The notes under the pieces were generated by a model. It had not been told where the DNA came from. It was given only the letters and a program-made list of their open reading frames with translations, and made no database searches. A DNA stretch of 64,000 bases from Blastocatellia bacterium (lineage in GTDB: Bacteria > Acidobacteriota > Blastocatellia > UBA7656 > JADIYM01), in assembly GCA_021463145.1 (NCBI GenBank), contig JAJTWZ010000002.1:62001-126000 (forward strand), in the 5' to 3' direction. Shown in pieces: positions 20,037 to 53,343 of this stretch. The position numbers and the translations under genes are program-made. Each line of letters begins with the position of its first letter. Position 1 is the stretch's first letter.

Positions 20037-22793
20037 CTATTTGAAATTGCCCACGAGCGTGAACGGCGCCCAGTAGTACGGATGCGCGAACGGCGCCCGT
20101 GGATCCGGCGTGAACTTGCCGTGGATACTGGTGGGCTTCGGATCCTCGTGGACGAGCATCCGATCCGGATCCGGTCCAGACGGCATGACGAGCGAGCCGC
20201 GGAGCAACATTTCCTGCGCTTTGCGTAGCGCCTCGGCCTTGTCGAGACTGCGGCCCGCGCGCAGCTTGTAGAACGTCTGCATGAGCGCGCTCGTCGATCG
20301 GTCGTTCACGGCCCAGAGGCTCGCGATAACGGCGCGTGCGCCGCGATCCTGCGCGATCGTCGCAAAGCTCTCCACCTCCTTGCCGTCGCCCCGAACCGAC
20401 GACGACGCGGTGTTGCAGGCCGATAACGTCAGTAAGTCCGTGCCCTTGAATGCCCGCTTGATGTCCCGGATATCGCCAACGTTCATCAGCGTTCCGTCGC
20501 CGAGCAGCAGGATCGAGTCTTCGGCCTTCGTCGGCTCGAGCTGGAAGTGCGTTGCCACGTGCATGACGCTGTAACCGTCCTGCAGCGCCGTCTCGAAAGC
20601 GGCTTCCGTAAAGTTTGCATCGATCGACACGCGTCCCGGAACCACTCCTCCTTCCGCCGCGGCCCGGTCGTCCGAGAAGATCCCACGCAACTCGTCGGCG
20701 ACTGCCGGCAGAGGAGCGAAATTGCCAACCTTGCTCGCAACGCCAAATCCAACGCCCGTGACGCTCGAAGCCGGTTCATCGAGCAGATGCTCGAGGCTCT
20801 CTCGAGTGAAGAGGACATTCCGGTATTTCTCGACGAGGTAATTCTGGCCGTCGTACAGCGCCGCAACCGGGACGTAACGCATCACGCCGTCGAAAGACCA
20901 TAGCAAGGTCGTCGTCCGGGTCGCCGTAAGCTCTGCCGCAACCGGCTTCACGAGGACGTCATAGAGCTGGCTGGCGAGCGGCAGAGGGTCGAGCTTCGGA
21001 TTCGTGAGCGTTTCGCGGAAGGACATCGCAAGAGCGTTGAGCTTCGCCGCCTGGATGGGCGTCGAGTAGGCGGTCTTTCCGTTCGGAGTTACCAGCACGA
21101 TCCAGCAGCGTTCGTCGGCGACCAGCGTATAGAGCGCCACGACACCCGGCCCAAGCTTGGAGAGCGTGAGCGGCAATTCACTACTCACGCGGATTCGTTT
21201 GACGCGGGGGTCCTTGCTTCCGGAATTCGTCGCTACACGGGCCATTAGTGCGTCGACGTCGGCAGCGAGGCGGTCCAACTCGGCCTCGAGCGTCGCGAGC
21301 CGTTCGCTCTGCAGCGTTGACCGGCTCGACGCCGGCATCGCGCGAAGCACCGAGGCTTCCTGCTCGAATGCAAGGATCTTGTCGCCTAGCGATTCGAGCT
21401 CGGATACCCAGGTCGGACCGCCAATCGAATCCTTGTCCTTCTTCTTCTTGTCCTTGGACTTCTCGCCGTCCTTCGCCTTTTCTTCGTCGTCTGCGGAGAT
21501 CTCGTCGTCCGCGACGGCGCGGTCATCCTCGGTCTTTGGTTTCTTCGCCTTCTTGGACTTCTTCTGCCCGGAATCGCCGGAGTCCACGGCCGAAGCCCGC
21601 CGAACATCCGAAAGCTGCCAGAACGCCAGCTCACGTTGGAGCCCGCCAAGCAGAACGAGGCCGTCGTTTTCCGGTGTCACGCCGGCGAGAGTACCGTCGG
21701 AGTACCGGCCGGCCCATTCGAGCATTTCCTGCTCCTTGAGGAGATCGATGAGCCGGAGGGCGGCATCGATGCGACCGGCGCGAAGCATTGCAGAGGCCAA
21801 CGCACGGCATCGCGTCGTGCTGTAAGCAAAGCGCTGCATCGAGGGAGCCGCCGGTTCTGCCGTTTCCGGCTCGTCCTTCGGCTGCTTGTCCTTCTTCGGC
21901 TTCTTTTCCTTCTTCTCGTCCCTGGCCTCTTCGTCGTTGTCCTGCGACGGATTGAAAGGATCTACCGTCACGACGATCGGCGGACGATTGGGATGCATCG
22001 GATCGCGCTGCGGACGTCCGTCGCCGTGATCGTGGTCTTCGCCGTTTCCACCAGGATCCCTGGTCGGCGGGTTTTTCGGAGGCTTCGGGTTTCGAGGAGG
22101 CTTCGGGTTTTTCGGAGGCTTCGGATCTCGCGGCGGCTGCTGAGTGCCGACGTCGTCGCCCTTGTCGCCGGACGGCGGCTCGTTGCCCACGTCGTCGCCA
22201 TCAGAAGATGGAACGTCGTCACCCTTTGGCGGCTTGTCACCCTTCGGAGGCCTGTGCCCCTTGGGTGGCTTGCCGCTGTCCGACGAAACATCGTCGCCCG
22301 CACTGGGGGGATCGTACTTCGGCGGCTTCCTGGTCTTCGGAGGCTTCGCGCTGCCGGACGAGTCGTCCCCTCCCCCCGCAGTTGGGGGATCGTACTTGGG
22401 CGGTTTGTTCGTCTTGGGCGGCTTCCTGGTCTTCGGAGGCTTCGCACTACCCCCCGCGTCGTCCCCGCCACCCGCTGTCGGGGGATCGTATTTCGGCGGC
22501 TTCTTCGTCTTCGGCGGCTTGGCCGAATCCGGCGACCCTCCTCCCGATTGCCACCCACCCTTTGGCGCCCTCGTTGCACGGCGAGTGCCCGTCGAGTCCG
22601 ACTGCCCTTCGGCCGGTGCGGTCTTGACTACCTTGGGCGCCACTCTTACCGGCTTCACCGTAGAGCGGTGCCGTGGCGCGACTCGCACGCGCGGAGCCGT
22701 ATTCGAGTTTTCCTGGAACGCGCCGGCTGGTACGGAAACACCGACGAGCAGCGACAAGGCAAGACCAAGTGAAGTGCGAAGAAGTGGCGTCAT
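20037..22793 (-). CDS. Secreted CHAT-domain protease with Pro/Lys repeat region
   Basis: 918 aa. Signal peptide (about 1-25), then a long low-complexity part (about 40-300) built of PPKYDPP, KPPK and GGGDD units, a Lys/Glu-rich charged stretch, a helical region with TPR-like character (about 320-520, LASAMLRAGRIDAALRLIDL), and a C-terminal CHAT domain (about 600-918). CHAT domains are caspase-like cysteine peptidases; the predicted dyad is His749 (VMHVATH) and Cys793 (SACNTA). SD aaggag lies 8 nt before the start. It is divergent from a kinase with an outer DUF4384 domain, which suggests a shared pathway. Substrate unknown. Confidence 0.85.
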   Translation of the reverse strand: MTPLLRTSLGLALSLLVGVSVPAGAFQENSNTAPRVRVAPRHRSTVKPVRVAPKVVKTAPAEGQSDSTGTRRATRAPKGGWQSGGGSPDSAKPPKTKKPPKYDPPTAGGGDDAGGSAKPPKTRKPPKTNKPPKYDPPTAGGGDDSSGSAKPPKTRKPPKYDPPSAGDDVSSDSGKPPKGHRPPKGDKPPKGDDVPSSDGDDVGNEPPSGDKGDDVGTQQPPRDPKPPKNPKPPRNPKPPKNPPTRDPGGNGEDHDHGDGRPQRDPMHPNRPPIVVTVDPFNPSQDNDEEARDEKKEKKPKKDKQPKDEPETAEPAAPSMQRFAYSTTRCRALASAMLRAGRIDAALRLIDLLKEQEMLEWAGRYSDGTLAGVTPENDGLVLLGGLQRELAFWQLSDVRRASAVDSGDSGQKKSKKAKKPKTEDDRAVADDEISADDEEKAKDGEKSKDKKKKDKDSIGGPTWVSELESLGDKILAFEQEASVLRAMPASSRSTLQSERLATLEAELDRLAADVDALMARVATNSGSKDPRVKRIRVSSELPLTLSKLGPGVVALYTLVADERCWIVLVTPNGKTAYSTPIQAAKLNALAMSFRETLTNPKLDPLPLASQLYDVLVKPVAAELTATRTTTLLWSFDGVMRYVPVAALYDGQNYLVEKYRNVLFTRESLEHLLDEPASSVTGVGFGVASKVGNFAPLPAVADELRGIFSDDRAAAEGGVVPGRVSIDANFTEAAFETALQDGYSVMHVATHFQLEPTKAEDSILLLGDGTLMNVGDIRDIKRAFKGTDLLTLSACNTASSSVRGDGKEVESFATIAQDRGARAVIASLWAVNDRSTSALMQTFYKLRAGRSLDKAEALRKAQEMLLRGSLVMPSGPDPDRMLVHEDPKPTSIHGKFTPDPRAPFAHPYYWAPFTLVGNFK

Positions 22794-25918: not shown

Positions 25919-28900
25919 CTAGTCGCCGGCCGCGGCCTCGATCGCGGCGCGAAGTCTGGCCGCCTGCTTACCGGCGTGGCTCTCTGGCGCCATTTCGGTT
26001 GCTAAAATGAACGAGTCGAGCGCCGCAAGGTAGGGCGATGCGTCGCGCCCGCGCAATACCTCCAGCAAGCCATACTCGTAGCTCATCATTGCAATGCCCC
26101 GTTCGTGGCCTAGTCCGCGCAAGCGCTCGAGAGACTCGTCGAGGCACCGCTCCGCCTCGTCGAGCCTGCCCAACTCTCGAAGGCACGCGCCTTCGGTCCC
26201 GAGCACGAATGCCGCAAACGGCATGTTCTCGACTTCCGTATGTATCGCATAGGCCTCGCGCGCATATCGCCTGCCCTCCTCGTATCTGCCGAGGGTCGCC
26301 ACGAGCGCCGCCAGGTTCGCCAGCGCGATTCCCTCCTCGCGACGGTTTCCGATCTCGCGAAGAATCTCGAGACCTTCGGCAAAGCAGCGCTCGGCGAGGT
26401 CCAGCCTTCCCCACTCTTCGTACATTACGGCCAGATTGCCCAACGTGCGCCCTTCGTCGGAACGATGTCCGACTTCTCGTGCAATCCCGATGGCGCGCTC
26501 GAAGAGTTCGAGGCTCGTCTCGAATTCGCCCCGGTATCCATAAACGATTGCCATGTTGCCTAGCTTCCCGCCATACCCGCGCCGATCTCCAATGGCCTCG
26601 TGAATCGCCGCCGCCCGCGAATAAAGCGCAAGCGCCTCGTCGTAGCGCCCGGCAGTGAATCGAATATTGCCGAGGCAGCCGGCCGTTATTCCCTCACTGG
26701 CCGTGTCACCGGCTGCAATGGCGATGGCGGACGATTGATGGTAGGCCAGCTCCGAGGCTTCCTCCCCACCGCGCTCCCACTCGACAATTCCGGTGGCACG
26801 AAGCACCTCAGCCTCGAGACGCGGCAATCCGATCGAATGCGCCTGGACTCGAGCTTCATTCAATGTCTCGATGGCGTCCGACAGGCGACCGAGCAGGCGC
26901 AGTACATCGTGTCCCAACTCGAGACGTGCACGGACGGAGGCCTCGTCGGGCGGGTCGGGAGCCAGCGACAAGGCGGAACGGTACAGACGCTCGGCGTCGG
27001 CCGTCGCATACTGACGTAGCGCCCAGCGCGCCGCGCTCAGCCACTTCACGAATGCCCGCTCGCGCTCATCCGCGCGCTCGCGGTGGCCGGCGATCACGGC
27101 ATCTGCCTCGGCCCCGAGCTCGAGCGACTCGAACGCGTCGGCGGCCGACGAGTGCATCACGCGGAGTGCCCCTGCATCCATCGATCGATATGCCTCTTTC
27201 TGCAGGTGATCGTGGGTGAAGCGCAGGACTCCGGCGGATGGCTCCTCGAGAATATTCCGCCGCAGAAGTTCATCTATTGCTTCGTCCTGAACCGGAACAA
27301 GACGCTCGAGCTGCCACGACTCGGCTTCGCGCCCAAACACCGAAACTGCGTGTGTGACGGCGAGCGAATCGGGGCTGAGCGTTGCGAAGCGCTGCGCAAG
27401 CAGTTCCCGAATCGACTGCGGCATCGGCAGAACGTCGTGCGTCGAGGAAAGCGGCGCCCGATCTCCGAGTTGCCACTCTCCGGCCGCGTCGCGCCATATG
27501 ATGCCGTCTTCGACCGAGGCGCGCAGATACTCCGCGACAAAGAACGGATTGCCGGTGCTGTGCCGGGCCAGATTCCGGCTGAAGACGAGTGGCGGCGGCT
27601 GGATCGAGAGCATGTCGCCGACGATCTCGGCGACTTCGGCGGCCGAGAGACGGTCGACCTCGACCAACACGACGCCCGCAGGGGAGGTCAGCCGCTCGCG
27701 AGCGAGGCTCGGCTCATCGGTGCGGATCGTCCCAACGATGACGAACGGTGTTGAAGCGAGCGTGCCGGAATTGACGAGGTACGCAAGGGCTTCGATCGAA
27801 AGTTCGTCGGCCCACTGCAGGTCGTCGAGGATCAATGTAACCGGTCGCAGCGAACCAAACGCGCGTACCGCGTATGCAACTGCCCCGAACAAGCGGCGGC
27901 GAGCGTCGTCTGGCCGAAGGTCCGCCACGGCGGCTTCAGTTTCGGCGAGCGCGGCAAGCGACGGTTCGTAGGGTGCAAGAATCGAGAGATGTCCGCCGAA
28001 GAGACGCTCGACTTCATCGGCGTCGCCGGCCCGCGCACGATCGCCGATTGCAGTGAGCAGAGGACGAAGGGCTCCGAGTGGCACGGCGTCGCCGCCGTAT
28101 ACGCCAGCTCCACGCTGACACTCGCCGACGACGAGCTGGAATCCGACGGCGCTGGCTTCGCGGCCGCACTCGATCGCGAGGCGCGTCTTGCCCGCACCGC
28201 TTTCGGCGCAGATGACGGCCATTCCACCCTGCCCCTCATCCTGCCTCCGCGAGATCGATCGGAGCTCCGCAAGTTGCAACTCGCGCCCGGCAAACGAGGG
28301 ACGGTTGAGATATGGCCTTGCCGGTGCACCGCTTGCGGGCGGCGGCTGACCAAGAAGCCTGCCAAGAGCCGTCGCAACGTCGACGGCATAACCGAACCGG
28401 CGCGCAGGCAGCTTTGCAAGTAACCGCAGGACGATCTCATCGAGGGCACTGGGGCACGATTCGACAATCTCGGATGGCGCAAGCGGCGAGCGTTGCAGAT
28501 GTCCCCACGCGACGTCGGCAGCCGGAGTGACGCCGAAAGGCGGCGCTCCCACGATCGCTTCGAAGAGCACGCAACCGATCGCGTAGAGATCCGCGCGAGC
28601 GTCGAGCGGATCGCCTTGAATCTGCTCCGGCGCCATATAGGCGATCGTGCCGGCGCCACCCTCGCCCAGATCGATCGACTCGCGGTTCGCAAGACCGGCA
28701 AATCGGCCAACTACTCCGAAGTCGATCAGCACCGGAGAGCCGTCCGGTCGAATCATAATGTTCTGAGGCTTCAAGTCGCGGTGAACTACTCCTTCACCGT
28801 GAATCACCGCCAGGGCCGAGCAGAGGTCCCGCAGGATGCGCAGGGTGTCGTGTAACCCGCCTTTCTGCCGGTTCACGAGCAATACTTCACGAAGAGACGA

Positions 28901-29170
28901 TCCCTGCACGAGCTCCATGGCAAGCCAAGGAGATAGTCCCTCGACCCCGTGCCCGTATATCCGGACCACTCCAGGATGGCGGATTCGCGAAAGCACGCCG
29001 GCCTCACGCCTGAAACTCGCCTGGAGCGGGCCTTCCAGCGCGCGCAGCAACTTTACGGCGGCGATCTCGCCTGTCTCGACGTGCTCCGCGCGAAAAACGA
29101 CTCCCATCCCGCCACGACCAATCTGGTCAAGCAGCCGATATGGACCCGCTTGCGTAGTGGAGGATCGCAA
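25919..29170 (-). CDS. Ser/Thr kinase with AAA-type ATPase and TPR array
   Basis: 1083 aa. Kinase domain about 11-272 (Lys40, HRDLKPQN at 130-137, DFG at 150-152). An ATPase of the PknK/MalT-like STAND type follows (about 293-560) with Walker A AESGAGKT (322-329) and Walker B VTLILDDLQWAD (444-455). From about 700 the protein is TPR repeats (EAIGDRRGYGGKLGNMAIVY and many like it). No membrane segment, so cytoplasmic. Such proteins are thought to assemble on ligand or partner binding and switch the kinase. The gene runs opposite to the DUF4384 gene (70-nt gap). The ligand is unknown. Confidence 0.88.
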   Translation of the reverse strand: MRSSTTQAGPYRLLDQIGRGGMGVVFRAEHVETGEIAAVKLLRALEGPLQASFRREAGVLSRIRHPGVVRIYGHGVEGLSPWLAMELVQGSSLREVLLVNRQKGGLHDTLRILRDLCSALAVIHGEGVVHRDLKPQNIMIRPDGSPVLIDFGVVGRFAGLANRESIDLGEGGAGTIAYMAPEQIQGDPLDARADLYAIGCVLFEAIVGAPPFGVTPAADVAWGHLQRSPLAPSEIVESCPSALDEIVLRLLAKLPARRFGYAVDVATALGRLLGQPPPASGAPARPYLNRPSFAGRELQLAELRSISRRQDEGQGGMAVICAESGAGKTRLAIECGREASAVGFQLVVGECQRGAGVYGGDAVPLGALRPLLTAIGDRARAGDADEVERLFGGHLSILAPYEPSLAALAETEAAVADLRPDDARRRLFGAVAYAVRAFGSLRPVTLILDDLQWADELSIEALAYLVNSGTLASTPFVIVGTIRTDEPSLARERLTSPAGVVLVEVDRLSAAEVAEIVGDMLSIQPPPLVFSRNLARHSTGNPFFVAEYLRASVEDGIIWRDAAGEWQLGDRAPLSSTHDVLPMPQSIRELLAQRFATLSPDSLAVTHAVSVFGREAESWQLERLVPVQDEAIDELLRRNILEEPSAGVLRFTHDHLQKEAYRSMDAGALRVMHSSAADAFESLELGAEADAVIAGHRERADERERAFVKWLSAARWALRQYATADAERLYRSALSLAPDPPDEASVRARLELGHDVLRLLGRLSDAIETLNEARVQAHSIGLPRLEAEVLRATGIVEWERGGEEASELAYHQSSAIAIAAGDTASEGITAGCLGNIRFTAGRYDEALALYSRAAAIHEAIGDRRGYGGKLGNMAIVYGYRGEFETSLELFERAIGIAREVGHRSDEGRTLGNLAVMYEEWGRLDLAERCFAEGLEILREIGNRREEGIALANLAALVATLGRYEEGRRYAREAYAIHTEVENMPFAAFVLGTEGACLRELGRLDEAERCLDESLERLRGLGHERGIAMMSYEYGLLEVLRGRDASPYLAALDSFILATEMAPESHAGKQAARLRAAIEAAAGD

Positions 29171-36892: not shown

Positions 36893-37117
36893 TCTTGAAA
36901 TCCGGGCCATCGCGATATCGGGTATTTGAGCCTGGCCGATGGCGGCACTTGTCGCCCCGAACGATCCGTGGAGACCTCGGAGGGCGGTGGCAACAAGTGT
37001 TGCGGCAAAATCGCTTCGGGGTTCGCGAGTCCTTGCCGGTCACTGCGAGGTCGGTATAGTCTCCGCCTAGTCCCGGGTGACAGCGATCTTCACGGCAAAC
37101 CCGCGTGCTTCAAGGAG

Positions 37118-39595
37118 ATGGTCGGCAAGACGATCCTCCACTACCGCGTCCTGAAAGAGCTCGGAAAGGGCGGTATGGGAGTGGTCTATAAAGCCGAGGA
37201 CCAGAAACTCCATCGGACGGTCGCCCTGAAAGTGCTTCTCGGGAACCTCGTCGGGGACGACAAGGCCCGAAAGAGGTTCATGAGAGAAGCCCGCGCCGCA
37301 TCCGCAATCGATCACCCGAACATCTGCACCGTCTACGAAATCAACGAAACTCCCGACCGGCTCTTCTTCGTGATGCAGTTTGTCGAGGGACAGACGCTCA
37401 AGAAGACGATCAACAACAAGCCTCTGCCGGTCGAGCAGGTCATCGAGATCTCTCTTCAACTCGCGGATGCGCTCGCCGAGGCCCATTCGCACGGCGTCAT
37501 CCATCGGGACATCAAGTCGTCGAACATCGTGATGACCGAGCGCGGGCAACCCAAGATTCTCGACTTCGGGCTGGCGAAACTGACGGAACCAACCAACGGC
37601 CGACGCAGTCCGAGCGACGACGTAGGCGGGATGACTGAGCTCACGCAGCGCGGCGTCCCGTTCGGTACCGCCAGCTACATGTCACCGGAGCAGGCGCAGG
37701 GAGAGATAGCCGATCACCGGTCCGACATCTTCTCGCTCGGCGTTGTGATGTACGAGATGTCCGCCGGCCGCCTTCCGTTCAAGGGAAAGACGAGCATAGA
37801 TGTGATGCACGGCGTCATCCACGACAGACCTCCTGCGTTACCGGACAACATCCCTCCGTCTTTCGTCCGCGTGATCGATCGGGCCATGGCCAAGATCCCG
37901 TCGGAGCGCTACCAGACGTCCGCCGAAATGCTCGAGGACCTGAAGCGCGTCGCCAGGGTCGTATACTCGGGCCGCGGCGATCTGCCCGTCGACCGAACGG
38001 CTTCCATGCACGCAATGAGGCCCGATCCGAAGCCCGGCACGATGGGGCGGGCAATGAACTGGCTCAAACGGAACGTGCTCGGTAAAGAGGAAGCCTCTTC
38101 GGCAATTGACGCCGAACCGAGCCACGAGGTCTCGGTCGAAACCGGTGACATCTCGCGCTCGGCATTCAGCGGCACGACGCGAGACAAGCGCGCCATCGCC
38201 ATCCTTCCTTTCAAGAACGTGTCCGGTGATCGCGAATCCGACTTCTATGGCTTCTCGCTCGCCGATTCCGTCATCACGGAACTCGCACAGCTCAAGTCGC
38301 TGATCGTCCGGCCATCGACGTTCGTGGCCAAGTATCAGAACATCGAAGTCGACCCCAGACAGGCTGGCACTGAACTCGCCGTCGATTCCGTACTCGTCGG
38401 CAGTTACCTGAAGGCCGGCGACCGCTTCCGCGTAACTCCGCAACTCATCGACATCTCGTCGGGCGAGATCATCTGGAGCGACAAGATCGACGTCGATTCG
38501 AAGGACATCATCACGCTCCAGGACACGATCTCGCAGCACATCGTCGACGGCTTGAGCATCCGGATCTCGGACCAGGAACAGAATCGGCTCGCTCGTGCCG
38601 CCACTTCCGACAGCGAGGCGTACGAGCAGTACCTGCGTGGTAAGAACCTTCTGAACACCTTCGTGACTCACACCCTCAGCCGCGAGGATCTCGACGAGGC
38701 CGTCGCCGCCTTCAAGCGAGCAACCGAACTGGATTCGCAGTTCGCGAACGCCTTCTCGTCGCTCGGTGTCTGCTACGCCACGTACGTGATGAAGGGCATG
38801 GGCGGAATTGCCTTCTACGACCAGGCCGAAGCGACGTGCAAGCGCGCGCTCGAACTCGATCCGAAGGCCGTCGAGCCGCGCGTTACGCTCGTCTTCATTT
38901 ATCTGCAGTCCGGTGACAAAGTGCGCGCCCGCGAGCTCGTCGAGGAACTCCGTCGCGAAGCGCCGAACGATACTTCGATCCGGCTCGTCGCCGGAACGCT
39001 CTACCGGCTCGACGGCCGCTACGAGGAAGCGTTGCGCGAGTTCGAGCGTCAACTCCGGATCAATCCGACCGAAATTGCGACCGCGCAGTACAACAAGGCG
39101 CGCATTTTCATGTATCGCGGCGACTACGAAACCGCGATCAAGGAGATCGAACGCGGCCGGAAGAGCGAGCCGGATCATCCGTTGCTCAATGCTTTCTGGG
39201 CCGAAATCCTCTATTACCAGGGCGAATACGACGAGTCGGAACGCATCTGGAAGGAAGTATTCGAGCTCGCCCCGAGCATGCGCGGGCTCTCGCCAATGCT
39301 CGGGTTCGTTTATTGCGCCCGAGGCGAATACGAGAAAGCGCTCGCGCTGGTCGATCACGATGTCATAGACGGAGCGTGCGCGGACCACGACGTCGCTTAC
39401 TGGCTTGCTTCCCTCTATGCGCTCCTCGGAGACCGGGACGAGGCGCTGACGTGGCTCGAGCGCGCGACAGATCTCGGAAACGAGAACTTCCCGTGGTTCG
39501 AGCGCGATCCGAACTGGGACGGCTTGCGTGGCGACGAAGCCTATGAGTCTCTGATGACGCGCCTCCGCGAACGATCGAGCGCGAGCGCCCAATAG
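37118..39595 (+). CDS. Ser/Thr kinase with TolB-like domain and TPR repeats
   Basis: 825 aa from ATG 37118 (MVGKTILHYRVLKELGKGG), which matches family starts; an upstream open frame back to 36926 has no family similarity. Kinase domain about 9-275 (Lys38, HRDIKSSN at 129-136, DFG at 149-151). A TolB-like N-terminal domain follows (about 357-480, AIAILPFKNVSGDRESDFYG), then TPR repeats to the end (LEEAL-, YxxAL-type helices). No membrane segment is seen. The GGAG upstream abuts the start codon with no spacer, which is unusual. This class is very common in Acidobacteriota. Divergent from the iron operon. Confidence 0.85.
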   Translation: MVGKTILHYRVLKELGKGGMGVVYKAEDQKLHRTVALKVLLGNLVGDDKARKRFMREARAASAIDHPNICTVYEINETPDRLFFVMQFVEGQTLKKTINNKPLPVEQVIEISLQLADALAEAHSHGVIHRDIKSSNIVMTERGQPKILDFGLAKLTEPTNGRRSPSDDVGGMTELTQRGVPFGTASYMSPEQAQGEIADHRSDIFSLGVVMYEMSAGRLPFKGKTSIDVMHGVIHDRPPALPDNIPPSFVRVIDRAMAKIPSERYQTSAEMLEDLKRVARVVYSGRGDLPVDRTASMHAMRPDPKPGTMGRAMNWLKRNVLGKEEASSAIDAEPSHEVSVETGDISRSAFSGTTRDKRAIAILPFKNVSGDRESDFYGFSLADSVITELAQLKSLIVRPSTFVAKYQNIEVDPRQAGTELAVDSVLVGSYLKAGDRFRVTPQLIDISSGEIIWSDKIDVDSKDIITLQDTISQHIVDGLSIRISDQEQNRLARAATSDSEAYEQYLRGKNLLNTFVTHTLSREDLDEAVAAFKRATELDSQFANAFSSLGVCYATYVMKGMGGIAFYDQAEATCKRALELDPKAVEPRVTLVFIYLQSGDKVRARELVEELRREAPNDTSIRLVAGTLYRLDGRYEEALREFERQLRINPTEIATAQYNKARIFMYRGDYETAIKEIERGRKSEPDHPLLNAFWAEILYYQGEYDESERIWKEVFELAPSMRGLSPMLGFVYCARGEYEKALALVDHDVIDGACADHDVAYWLASLYALLGDRDEALTWLERATDLGNENFPWFERDPNWDGLRGDEAYESLMTRLRERSSASAQ

Positions 39596-47670: not shown

Positions 47671-50600
47671 CTACTTCACCCAGAGGCTCTCATAGGCCAC
47701 GCTGGGATACGTGTAAGACGTAATGGCGAGCCCCTCGAGCTCGGGCCGCGCGATGCGGTAGTTGCGCGGATGGAAAAGCGGCAAAAGGACGGCCTCGCGG
47801 ATAAGAAGATCCTCCATCTGCCGGTAAACGCCGTGTCGAACGCTCGGGTCGGTCTCGATCCGCCCACGCTCGACGAGTGCATCGAGCTGCTTCGATCCAA
47901 GCATCGCGCCCAGCACGCCGTCCTCCGAGTGCAGAAGTCCGCGCGCAAAGCTGTCCGCATCCGGGTAATCCGCAACCCAGGCGTTTATCACCATGTCGAC
48001 CGATCCACTGCTCTGGGCGTGGAAGAGCTCATCGGGAGAAACCGTCTCCAGGTTTACGCGCGCTCCCATCCTCTTCATCGTTTCCAGCAGTTCTGTGGTG
48101 AGATCCAGATAACGGCTTGTGAATATCGCGTTGGTTACGGCAGTGAGCTCTATCGGCTCGTCCAGAATCCGCGGCAGCGCCCCGGACCCGGTCGTCCCTC
48201 TTGGAGTTTCATAGCCGAGAAGTCCAGGTGGAATCAGCCCGTGCGCCGGCATCGTGAATCGCCCCAGCACGCGTCTGACGATCGAGGCTGTATCGATTGC
48301 CGACGTCAACCACCTGCGAACATCGACATCGGCAAGCGGCCCGCGATGAGTGTTGAACGTGACGAAAGACGACGACAGGCGCGGCATTTCGCGATAACAC
48401 GACGCGAAGTCAGAGTCGTGCCGCAGGGAATCGACGTCTGCAGTCGAGAGATCGGTTGCCAACGAGAGCCGGCCCGCACGGAACTCTCCGAGAATCTGGC
48501 CGGAAGTAAGGCCAAATATGAAAACGAGCCCATCGGATTTCGGATACCCCGCTCTCCAGTAATCGGGATTCCTTTCGAGCTCGAGGCGGCGTCCCGGATC
48601 GAACTGGAGCACGCGAAACGGTCCGGTTCCGACGCACGTTTCACGCCAGCTCGTGTCGAATCCGCTGCTCCCTTCGGGGATGATCGCGAGCGCGGCGTTT
48701 GTCAGCATCACGGAGAAAAGAAGCAGCGGCATCTCGAGCTCGATCGTGAACTCGACCGCCGAGAGAATGCGAAATCCCTCCAGATCGCCGGCTTCGCCTT
48801 CGATCATTGCCCTGGCACCGCGTATGGGCAGCAGAAGTCGGCGGTTCGTTCCGTTTGGATCGAGCAGGAATCGCTCGAACGTGTAACGGACATCGCGTGA
48901 AGTCAGGCGCCGGCCGTCGTGAAAACGCACGTCGTCGCGCAGGTGGAACCTGAAGCGCCGGCCTCCTTCCTCCACTTGAAACGCCGCAGCGAGCCAGGGG
49001 ACGACCCGCGCGCCCTCGATGACGCGCGTAAGCGTCTCGAATATGTTTGGAATTACCTCTCCGTGACTGAGAGTTGAGATGTAGGACGGATCGAGCGACT
49101 CGATCTTCGTCGCTCCACCGGGCACGTAGATCGTCCCTCCGCTGGAACGGCGCGGTGCGACCGGTGTGGAATCGCCGGACTCACTCGCCTTTCCGACCTC
49201 GGCGTAGTTCACGCACGGAGCGTTTCCGCGCACGCGTATGCCTCGAACCAGACTCGACGACAGCCGGTAGTTCACCTCGTGGAATAGCGGCACGATGATT
49301 CCACCATCGAGCAATGCGTGCTCGAACTTTCGGTACAACGTCTCCCGGATGCCGGCAGAGCGCTCCGCTCTTGCTTCCTCCGCAATCGCGTCCGTCTCGG
49401 GTGACGAGAAGAAGTTCCTGAGGATGCCAACCTGCGAATGGAAGAGTCCGTAAGTGAAATTGTCGGGATCGTCGTAGTCGGCGTTCCACCTGAGCACGAT
49501 CAAGTCCACACCGCCTCCCGAATTCAGAGCGCGAGCATAGCTGTCTTCGTCGGGAGTCACGTCCAGGACCTGCACGCCGAGGTCGCGCCATGCACCGAAG
49601 AGCGCGCGGAGCAACTCGCCATAACGGCCGGACAACCCCGGTGGAATTGCTGCCGATACGCGCATCGGCGCCGTGAACCCGTGACTCGTCATCTGCGCCA
49701 GCGCCTGATCGATGGAAATCGGGGTTCGCCGCCGGCCCGGATCGTGACCCAGCATTCCCGGGGGGATCAGGCCAGTCGCAGGCACGGCAAACCGGCCCAT
49801 CGACTGCCAGATCAGGTCCTGGGTCCGCACAACTCCAGCAAGCGCGCGCCGGGCGGAAACATCTCGGAAGAGCTCGCTCTGCAAGTTGAACACCACGAGT
49901 GCCACGTTTTTCCGAGGCGCTTCGCTCAACTGCGCACGGCTGCGCTGGTCACGAAGAATCCTATCGAGATCGTCGGTCAACAGATCGTGAACGATGTCCA
50001 ACTGCCCAGCCCGGAATCGCGCAGCAAGTTCGCCCGGCGTCAGCCGTGTCTGGAACTCAATCCGGTCGATGGGCGTCGGCGCACCGCCCCAATACGATTC
50101 GTTGCGAGCAAGGACGATTCTCTTCGGCTCGGCCGACTCCACGCGGAACCGGCCGGTGCCGAGTATGGCCTCCGTCCCGTCTTCGTTTCTGGTCACGCGG
50201 ACGATTCCGGCGCCCGGATCCGACAACAGCGTCGGATAGATAGGCACGGTTTCGGTCAACTTGATCTCGACTTGCGAATCTGACCTGACAACTACTCCTG
50301 CCAGATGCTCGGCTTCGCCTCGGGCAAACTCGGTCGCACCAACCACCGTGGCCACGATTGCACTTGGCGAATCGGGGTCGATGCGGATAGCGCGTTCGAA
50401 CGTCAGGCGAACGTCGTCGGCCGTAAGCGGCTCGCCGTTCGAGAAGCGCACGTCCGAGCGCAATGAGATGAAAATCGATCGGCCCCCGTCGCGCAATTCC
50501 CACTTCTCACCGATGAGCGGCTGGATCGTTCCCTGCTCGTCGGTCGAGAAGAGACATTCGAAGACGCTGGAGAGAACCTCCTCCTCATCGACCGTCGTGA

Positions 50601-53343
50601 TCGCGGACGGCTCACGCGCATCGACGCGGCCCGGCATCCCTACGCACAACGTGCCGCCGACTGGCAATTCAACCTCCGGCGCCGGGCCCTCGGGACGCAA
50701 CAGTTCGATCTCTTCAAGGTATTCACGCGCCGCGTCGTACTCGCCGCGAAGATTTGCAACGGTTGCGCCCAGCGACAGCAACCGCGACCGCGCTTCCTGA
50801 TCGCCAATCGATCGCGCCACTTCCAGACCGCGGTCTACCCAACGTCGCGTTTCTTCAATCCTCCTTCCCTCCCACGCGGTCTCTGCTGCAAACAGAAATG
50901 CAGCGACCAGTCGAGGCGTGTTTCGTTCGCGCTCGAAGATGCGTATCGCGCGCTCGACTTCACGAACGGCGCCCTCGATGTTCCCCTCTATCCGCCAGGC
51001 TCCCGAGAGCAGAAGGCGCGCTTCGCCCTCGAGCGACCGGTCGCCGTTCCATTCGTCATCTTCCAGAAACTCGAGCGCCGTCCGCGCCGACAGAATCGCC
51101 TCCTCGGTCGAGAACGCATCGAGCGACTTTCGTGCTGCCTTGAGGCCGTACTCGACGGCCTTGTCAGCGACGTCGCCGTGCGAATAGTGGTGCGCGAGTG
51201 AAGCCCAGAAACGCTCCTTCCCGCCATTGCGGGCGTCCGTCCATTCGGCGTAGCGGCGATGCAGACTGCGCCGCTTCCGGCGCGAGAGCCCGGCATAGAG
51301 CGCTTCGCGCACTACGCCGCTCGCAAAAGACATCCGGTCACCGCGCGACTCGCGTTCCTCTTCGAGCATTCCCTGACGAAGAAGACGATCGACGGCGTCT
51401 TCGATGTCGGCGCCGCGACCGTCGGCGAGGGCCTCCAGGTCGCGATACTCGAACGTTCTTCCGAGAACAGCCGCCATCGATAGTATCTCGCGGTCGTTCT
51501 CGTCGAGCCGCTCGATCTGCTTCTCGACGACCTGCTGGATCGTCTCTGGAAGCGCGTCGCTCGTAAGTCCCATTTCACTTGACAGCGACAGGGTCCCGAC
51601 GTCGTCCTCGGCAATCCCGCCCGAGTCGACTAGCGACCTCACCAGTTCCTTCGTGAAGAACGGATTGCCTTCAGTCGCGTCGAACAGAGTCCGCGAGAGC
51701 GAGTCGCCGAGGCGTCCGGATCCGATCAGGGCCTCAACGAACGCCCGGTGCTCGATGGCAGTCATCGGACCAAGCAGAAGGTGCACGAAACGCCGGTCAC
51801 CGTGAAAACTGTCCAGCAGGCGCGAAATCGCGTGACGGCGATCGACGTCGCCGGTTCGGTAAGTCCCGATGATGAATGTCGGCGTCGGACCGAGGCGGCG
51901 GACGATGTACTGAAGCGCCTCGATCGACACATCGGCATCGTGAAGGTCCTCGAGCAGAAGAACGAGCGGGCGACCACTCGAAATCCGCGCGATGACTCGC
52001 GCAAGCAGTTCGAAGATCGCCGTCCGGTCGTCCACGCGCCGAACGCGGCTGTGATCGGCCTTCGAGTCGGCAGACGCCGAGCGGATGTCGCCGATCTCGG
52101 CCAGCACCGGGAAAAGATAGGCGAGTTCTGGGGCGAGGTCGGAGAAGTCGGCAATCTCGGTCGACGAAGACGCGGTCTCTCGCGAACGGAAGTACTCCTG
52201 AATTGCTTCGCAGAAACCCTGGAACGGAAACGACCTATCCAGCTCGACGAAGCGACCATGCAGGACATGGATACGCCGAGCCTTTGCAAGCCTCTCGATT
52301 TCCTCGAGCAGCCGGCTCTTGCCGATACCGGGTTCGCCGCCCACGATCGCGATCTGGCACTCACCGTTAACCGCCGCATTCAAGCGATGCTGCAACTCGG
52401 TAAGCTCGCGGTCACGGCCGGTAAACGGCGCCAATTCGCGCTGGACCGGTTCGGGACGCGACAGTCGTGTCGATGCCATCGCAATCGGCCGCTGACGGTC
52501 ATCATCGTTGAGTCCCAGCCGGTAACGCGCCAGGGCGTCCGCCACTTCACGCGCCGTCTGGGGGCGCCCGGACGGTTCGCGCGCGAGGCACCGCATCGCG
52601 ATCTGCTCGAGTTCGAAGTCGACATCGGCCCCGCGCTGCGTTGGAGGCTGCGGGTTCTCGTGCACGATGCGGTAGAGGACCGACTGCACTTCTCCGGCGA
52701 ATGGCGGTTCGCCAAGCAGGCACTCGTAGAGAACAGTCCCGAAAGAGTAGATGTCGGAGCGCGCGTCGACTTCACTCGTGGCTGAAACCTGCTCGGGGCT
52801 GAAGTACGAGACCGTTCCGATTATCGTGCCCGAATGCGTAATCCGGGTGAGCTGGCTTTCGAGCGACGCGCGCGCAAGGCCGAAATCCATGATCCGCACG
52901 CGCAGGTTGTCGTTCTCCGTGCGCCAGACCATGATGTTCTCTGGCTTGATGTCGCGATGGACGACGCCCTGGCTGTGGCTGTAGTCGAGTGCGTCCGCTA
53001 CTTGCGAAGCGAGGTCCACGACGTCCCCGAGGCGCAACGAGCGCTCGCGCAGAAGCACGCGAAGATTCGTGCCGCCTATGACGGGCATCACGAAGAACAG
53101 CGAGCCTTCGTGGCGTCCAATGTCGTAGACCGTCACGATCGCCGGGTGATCCATCCTAGCGACGACCTGCGCCTCGCGCTGGAACCGAAGCTCGGCGTCG
53201 GGAGTAAGCATTGTCGGCGGCACGACCTTGATGGCGACCTCGCGATCGAGCAGCGGGTCACGGGCGCGATACACGACGCCCATTCCGCCTCGGCCAAGTT
53301 CGCCGACAATCTCGTAGCGGTCCGCCAGTCTGGTGCCTATCAT
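47671..53343 (-). CDS. Ser/Thr kinase - STAND ATPase - double solute-binding-protein fusion
   Basis: 1890 aa. Domains in order: kinase (about 10-275; Lys39, HRDIKPEN at 129-136, DFG at 153-155), STAND/AAA-type ATPase (about 305-600; Walker A GGEPGIGKS at 335-343, Walker B LVLLLEDLHDAD near 460-471), helical/TPR-like region (about 690-885), then two complete copies of an extracellular solute-binding protein family 5 domain (about 897-1375 and 1402-1890). Each has the family's ADDVRLTFERA or SRDVRYTFERF, GTGRFRV or GTGPFRV, and LDIV / IPPGLLGY segments. No signal peptide or membrane segment, so the binding domains should be cytoplasmic. SD gggaga precedes the ATG. Cytoplasmic family-5 domains are known in the regulator SgrR. 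Confidence 0.88.
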   Translation of the reverse strand: MIGTRLADRYEIVGELGRGGMGVVYRARDPLLDREVAIKVVPPTMLTPDAELRFQREAQVVARMDHPAIVTVYDIGRHEGSLFFVMPVIGGTNLRVLLRERSLRLGDVVDLASQVADALDYSHSQGVVHRDIKPENIMVWRTENDNLRVRIMDFGLARASLESQLTRITHSGTIIGTVSYFSPEQVSATSEVDARSDIYSFGTVLYECLLGEPPFAGEVQSVLYRIVHENPQPPTQRGADVDFELEQIAMRCLAREPSGRPQTAREVADALARYRLGLNDDDRQRPIAMASTRLSRPEPVQRELAPFTGRDRELTELQHRLNAAVNGECQIAIVGGEPGIGKSRLLEEIERLAKARRIHVLHGRFVELDRSFPFQGFCEAIQEYFRSRETASSSTEIADFSDLAPELAYLFPVLAEIGDIRSASADSKADHSRVRRVDDRTAIFELLARVIARISSGRPLVLLLEDLHDADVSIEALQYIVRRLGPTPTFIIGTYRTGDVDRRHAISRLLDSFHGDRRFVHLLLGPMTAIEHRAFVEALIGSGRLGDSLSRTLFDATEGNPFFTKELVRSLVDSGGIAEDDVGTLSLSSEMGLTSDALPETIQQVVEKQIERLDENDREILSMAAVLGRTFEYRDLEALADGRGADIEDAVDRLLRQGMLEEERESRGDRMSFASGVVREALYAGLSRRKRRSLHRRYAEWTDARNGGKERFWASLAHHYSHGDVADKAVEYGLKAARKSLDAFSTEEAILSARTALEFLEDDEWNGDRSLEGEARLLLSGAWRIEGNIEGAVREVERAIRIFERERNTPRLVAAFLFAAETAWEGRRIEETRRWVDRGLEVARSIGDQEARSRLLSLGATVANLRGEYDAAREYLEEIELLRPEGPAPEVELPVGGTLCVGMPGRVDAREPSAITTVDEEEVLSSVFECLFSTDEQGTIQPLIGEKWELRDGGRSIFISLRSDVRFSNGEPLTADDVRLTFERAIRIDPDSPSAIVATVVGATEFARGEAEHLAGVVVRSDSQVEIKLTETVPIYPTLLSDPGAGIVRVTRNEDGTEAILGTGRFRVESAEPKRIVLARNESYWGGAPTPIDRIEFQTRLTPGELAARFRAGQLDIVHDLLTDDLDRILRDQRSRAQLSEAPRKNVALVVFNLQSELFRDVSARRALAGVVRTQDLIWQSMGRFAVPATGLIPPGMLGHDPGRRRTPISIDQALAQMTSHGFTAPMRVSAAIPPGLSGRYGELLRALFGAWRDLGVQVLDVTPDEDSYARALNSGGGVDLIVLRWNADYDDPDNFTYGLFHSQVGILRNFFSSPETDAIAEEARAERSAGIRETLYRKFEHALLDGGIIVPLFHEVNYRLSSSLVRGIRVRGNAPCVNYAEVGKASESGDSTPVAPRRSSGGTIYVPGGATKIESLDPSYISTLSHGEVIPNIFETLTRVIEGARVVPWLAAAFQVEEGGRRFRFHLRDDVRFHDGRRLTSRDVRYTFERFLLDPNGTNRRLLLPIRGARAMIEGEAGDLEGFRILSAVEFTIELEMPLLLFSVMLTNAALAIIPEGSSGFDTSWRETCVGTGPFRVLQFDPGRRLELERNPDYWRAGYPKSDGLVFIFGLTSGQILGEFRAGRLSLATDLSTADVDSLRHDSDFASCYREMPRLSSSFVTFNTHRGPLADVDVRRWLTSAIDTASIVRRVLGRFTMPAHGLIPPGLLGYETPRGTTGSGALPRILDEPIELTAVTNAIFTSRYLDLTTELLETMKRMGARVNLETVSPDELFHAQSSGSVDMVINAWVADYPDADSFARGLLHSEDGVLGAMLGSKQLDALVERGRIETDPSVRHGVYRQMEDLLIREAVLLPLFHPRNYRIARPELEGLAITSYTYPSVAYESLWVK

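Follow-up and report, generated by a model that had tools for sequence, protein, structure and literature searches.

What do two solute-binding protein (SBP) domains do in a Ser/Thr kinase that appears to stay inside the cell? This question is raised by one gene in the stretch of Blastocatellia bacterium DNA that we analysed (64,000 nucleotides, hereafter the window). The gene covers 47671-53343 on the minus strand as an uninterrupted ATG-to-stop frame of 1890 codons, and encodes a protein with the order Pkinase-AAA_16-helical region-SBP_bac_5-SBP_bac_5. A first-pass annotation, made from the sequence alone, had described a single frame with a kinase, an ATPase, a helical region and two SBP domains, and the open reading frame and Pfam bore this out. 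Pkinase, AAA_16 and SBP_bac_5 all scored far above their cut-offs (for the two SBP_bac_5 stretches, 2.2e-115 and 386 bits versus a cut-off of 32.4), and a TPR match was weak. The start codon agrees with that of the homologues, whose N-terminus likewise reads MIGxxL..RYE, and GGGAG lies just 5' of the ATG.

We scanned 84,980 species with a sequence pattern, and several Acidobacteriota assemblies from Blastocatellia, Pyrinomonadaceae and Chloracidobacterium proved to encode homologues that align end to end (residues 1-1890, 43-54% identity). These match in the kinase, the ATPase, the helical region and each of the two SBPs. Because these assemblies are independent, the 1890-aa frame is no artefact. 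Together with the even GC content along the gene (0.60-0.65), the homologues exclude the frameshift or assembly join that the annotation had considered. Furthermore, we surveyed 396 Acidobacteriota genomes, scoring the best two candidates per genome, so that all counts are lower bounds. A tandem SBP pair in one frame was found in at least 14 of the 396 genomes, spread over 10 family groups, and one more was cut by a contig end. The kinase is present in 13 of these 14 loci, and the architecture that the annotation had proposed to look for elsewhere is thus conserved in at least 13 Acidobacteriota genomes. At the remaining locus, L073:4493-9823(+), Trans_reg_C (a winged-helix DNA-binding domain) replaces the kinase, and AAA_16, the helical region and both SBPs are kept. 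This swap of output is our strongest evidence that the C-terminal part works as a movable cassette of sensor and switch. Since relatives across the phylum conserve the layout, the 1890-aa protein probably does sense small molecules within the cell. Another locus, L064:2548-8973(-), carries two kinase domains in a row ahead of the ATPase and the SBP pair. A further homologue (L025), on a contig of 231 kb, comes from a genome apparently outside Acidobacteriota, in a phylum with seven genomes in the collection, one of which has the protein; its presence there may be due to transfer or mis-binning.

The genomic surroundings say little about function. Upstream, a tRNA-Arg and a hairpin after it lie between the gene and a ppk1-like gene, so the 1890-aa gene is probably driven by its own promoter. 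It is followed by bioB- and bioA-like genes (these and the ppk1-like frame were assigned by eye). No ABC permease or ATPase genes adjoin it, and no neighbour genes are conserved across the homologue loci, so that they give no hint at the ligand or the target. A shared operon that would reveal function was ruled out, as the bioB- and bioA-like genes do not recur beside homologues. The 64-kb window contains three Ser/Thr kinases. The protein encoded at 25919-29170 on the minus strand has a kinase, AAA_16 and TPR without binding domains, and is likely a model of the ancestral layout. A kinase with many TPR repeats lies at 36926-39595 on the plus strand, and 20037-22793 on the minus strand encodes a 918-aa protein whose C-terminal domain is of the CHAT (caspase-like protease) type.

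The kinase domain spans residues 10-263 (52555-53316, minus strand; Pfam Pkinase 7.6e-48), and its motifs are intact, including the G-loop, K39, HRD131, N136 and D153FG. Across 29 homologues, K39, N136, D153 and G155 are conserved in every sequence and D131 in 28. In the predicted structure, the closest solved fold is PknB (Z 32.4, 1.7 Å over 255 residues), and Thr residues are present in the activation loop, as in PknB-like kinases. We therefore assigned it as a Hanks-type (PknB-like) domain with putative phosphotransfer activity.

Next to the kinase lies the AAA_16 ATPase, residues 306-491 (51871-52428, minus strand; Pfam 6.1e-24), with a Walker A motif GEPGIGKS at 336-343 and a Walker B motif LLLEDLH at 462-468. 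The Walker A residues G336, G339, G341 and K342 are found in 29/29 homologues, and the acidic residue 465 of Walker B is Glu in all but one of them, which has Asp. This invariance suggests that nucleotide binding, and probably hydrolysis, is under selection. The helical region at residues 600-882 (50698-51546, minus strand) is predicted to end in paired antiparallel helices resembling a TPR/MalT arm (mean pLDDT 82.4), and Pfam gave a weak MalT-like TPR match at about 784-882 (TPR_MalT, 0.0032). A direct link to E. coli MalT by profile was rejected, as the match was confined to the repeat region and, with a probability of 1.5, not significant. A sequence search with the ATPase-arm region found no matching solved structure, and the matches listed in a fold search with the kinase-ATPase model all came from the kinase part. 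Given these null results, the case for STAND-type switching draws on the domain class and the motifs.

The first SBP domain spans residues 895-1387 (49183-50661, minus strand), and the second spans residues 1398-1890 (47674-49152, minus strand). We modelled the pair with AlphaFold2 (mean pLDDT 87.7; pTM 0.53, the mutual placing of the domains being uncertain), and both domains are predicted to have the complete cluster-C (family-5) fold, in agreement with the two full domains of the annotation. The first model matched 5u4o (Z 39.3), and the second matched MppA (Z 38.2) and OppA (Z 37.7).

To compare the pockets, we aligned the domains with E. coli OppA, DppA, NikA and SgrR, and judged cleft geometry from the alignment. 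The Asp at OppA D419/DppA D408, which we take to hold the peptide N-terminus, is kept in both window domains (D1289 and D1792). It occurs in 22/27 first-type, 25/29 second-type and 13/13 chemoreceptor SBP domains; two of the five first-type domains that lack it have Glu instead. The same Asp is absent from NikA, from SgrR and from the host SBPs L038 and L039. Four residues before it, the Gly at OppA G415 is replaced by Arg in most kinase-linked domains and by Ala in the second domain of the window protein, and the residues with which OppA grips the C-terminal end are not conserved. Since the amine-binding Asp is retained here and missing from NikA and SgrR, a peptide or another amine-bearing ligand is favoured, most likely a small amine-bearing molecule that need not be a long peptide. 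The annotation had left the choice between a peptide, a sugar and a metal; the peptide part of that proposal survives in this broader form, and NikA-like metal binding and SgrR-like sugar-phosphate sensing are both disfavoured.

The SBP pair is most simply placed in the cytoplasm. By a hydropathy scan, the window protein has neither a signal peptide nor a membrane helix, as the annotation had noted, and it has no lipobox; its full-length relatives likewise lack signal peptides and membrane spans. Outside the folded domains, no 19-residue segment resembles a membrane span, and the single peak (1.89) falls inside the second SBP domain where homologues align, and the top values of other members are 1.2-1.8. 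In contrast, the five SBP_bac_5 proteins that the host genome encodes as separate chains have an N-terminal hydrophobic stretch ending in a lipobox-like Cys. This difference argues for a cytoplasmic SBP pair, and a membrane anchor with the pair outside was ruled out because there are no spans.

To trace the origin of the two copies, we built a tree of 76 SBP domains, including first, second, single, chemoreceptor and transporter SBPs. All first SBPs form one clade (support 100), and all second SBPs form another together with two single kinase-linked SBPs (support 100). The two clades are joined apart from the chemoreceptor and transporter domains, again with support of 100. Identity between the two SBPs of one protein is 31%, versus 43-46% for the same copy across proteins. 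The joined sister clades point to a single tandem duplication that preceded the spread of the family and was retained, after which the copies diverged. The position of the single-SBP kinases in the second clade suggests that they arose by loss of the first SBP.

The host genome has further members of the family. It encodes a second tandem-SBP copy (C97, 1986 aa), and two halves at the ends of contigs C94 and C74 pair with the first and second SBP of the window protein in the tree, and are probably a third tandem copy split between these contigs. A single-SBP kinase-ATPase paralogue (C85, L035:6605-10999(-)) matches only the first 148 of 263 positions of the kinase profile, with gaps at the activation loop, and its kinase is perhaps degenerate. 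There are also two MCPsignal-SBP_bac_5 fusions (C118 and C139), and in total 9 of the 14 SBP_bac_5 domains in the host genome belong to signalling proteins. Such fusions include L031:4510-7692(+), L032:4733-7810(-) and L082-L092. All 10 single-SBP proteins scanned with Pfam have MCPsignal followed by SBP_bac_5. Single-SBP proteins of about 1025-1216 aa occur in at least about 26 of the 396 Acidobacteriota genomes, where the assignment in the remaining genomes follows only from protein length and the similarity of the SBP, and proteins of this size and SBP type were found in 8/8 sampled genomes of the order to which the window belongs. In the tree, 12 of 13 chemoreceptor SBPs group together. 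No convincing membrane helix was found in the two host proteins, and these fusions look like soluble chemoreceptors.

We compared the window protein with known systems. In STAND proteins, including MalT and PknK, an arm links the ATPase to a sensor, which opens the nucleotide-binding switch through this helical arm and leads to multimerisation (PMC4381067). The window protein follows the same order of effector, ATPase, probable helical arm and sensor, with the SBP pair as the putative sensor. Specifically, it resembles PknK of M. tuberculosis and the kinase-AAA-TPR STAND proteins in its N-terminal Ser/Thr kinase, putative nucleotide-binding switch domain and probable helical repeats. To our knowledge PknK carries no solute-binding domains, whereas the window protein has two SBP_bac_5 copies at the sensor position. 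SgrR and DsvR provide a precedent for a family-5 domain in a cytoplasmic one-chain regulator, but they combine a winged helix and a single SBP with a DNA-binding output and no ATPase, and the window protein falls outside the SgrR family (NCBIfam match 28.7 versus a cut-off of 476). Both domains share the predicted fold of OppA, DppA and MppA (Z 36-38), and with OppA and DppA also the N-terminus-binding Asp. Unlike these transport proteins, they have no signal peptide or adjacent ABC genes, are fused to a kinase-ATPase, and mostly carry Arg at the Gly415 position. In the GlnH-GlnX-PknG system of Corynebacterium, a soluble Ser/Thr kinase is likewise under the control of an SBP (PMC9769921). There, the SBP belongs to family 3, lies outside and acts via a membrane protein, whereas the window protein is one soluble chain. 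Residues 304-878 also match the ATPase-repeat part of the TOMM kinase/cyclase fusion TIGR03903, but no cyclase was found and the score of 282 is far below the family cut-off of 706. Published kinase or chemoreceptor fusions to SBP_bac_5 were not found in the open-licence literature. Within that literature, STAND kinases and cytoplasmic family-5 domains are both known, and the window protein is a STAND-like kinase with a new type of sensor. The layout is thus new as far as we searched, as the annotation had supposed, but it is not a single oddity, since it belongs to a conserved family with several outputs.

With moderate confidence, we favour a cytoplasmic, ligand-gated, STAND-like Ser/Thr kinase of the PknK/MalT-like kind that uses tandem OppA/DppA-type SBPs as its sensor; in this reading we infer the class of ligand, the switching of the ATPase, its oligomerisation, the activation of the kinase and the substrates. 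An intracellular small amine-bearing molecule (a peptide, an amino acid or a derivative) would close one or both SBPs, and the closed sensor would draw the helical arm away from the AAA_16 ATPase. The freed ATPase would exchange ADP for ATP and oligomerise, and the oligomer would bring kinase domains together for mutual phosphorylation of their activation loops. As the loop bears Thr like those of PknB-like kinases, oligomerisation followed by trans-phosphorylation is a natural reading. The activated kinases would then modify target proteins. The cytoplasmic location, the sensor role of the SBPs and the ATPase as go-between had been suggested before, and all three fit the missing export signal, the MalT/PknK-like layout and the swapped output.

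Instead of sensing a free small ligand, the SBPs could serve as a scaffold or docking site to which partner proteins, or the free peptide tails of proteins, bind, and so bring the kinase to its substrates. Tandem long domains in an 1890-aa protein could offer a large surface, several pocket residues are unlike those of OppA, and some members are without the Asp. However, both domains have a complete cluster-C fold in the model and most members retain the amine-binding Asp, and we regard docking as unlikely. Slightly less probable again, in our judgement, is that small ligands are sensed but SBP closure acts directly on the kinase, the ATPase being only a structural or oligomerisation platform. 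The lack of significant MalT homology over the ATPase would agree with this, but the Walker A glycines and Lys342 are kept in 29/29 homologues, and Walker B has Glu in 28/29 and Asp in the other. As for an accidental fusion, a mis-assembly or a decayed gene, nothing beyond the unusual layout speaks for it; even GC, end-to-end homologues in many assemblies, paralogues in the host and two ancient clades make it extremely improbable, and the homologues already refute it.

The usual account of STAND switches gives them repeat-type sensors, and solute-binding proteins are normally regarded as receptors outside the cell. A conserved kinase-ATPase family with two complete binding folds in the cytoplasm would offer a defined ligand pocket for studying how STAND-type switches are triggered. 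More tentatively, at a little under an even chance, Acidobacteriota may use family-5 SBPs as a general intracellular peptide or amine sensor on kinase-ATPase, winged-helix-ATPase and soluble chemoreceptor outputs, in which case a receptor class regarded as periplasmic would have a second signalling role in the cytoplasm. The kinase family also suggests that Acidobacteriota, which are common and little-studied soil bacteria, watch their internal pool of peptides and amino compounds in an undescribed way.
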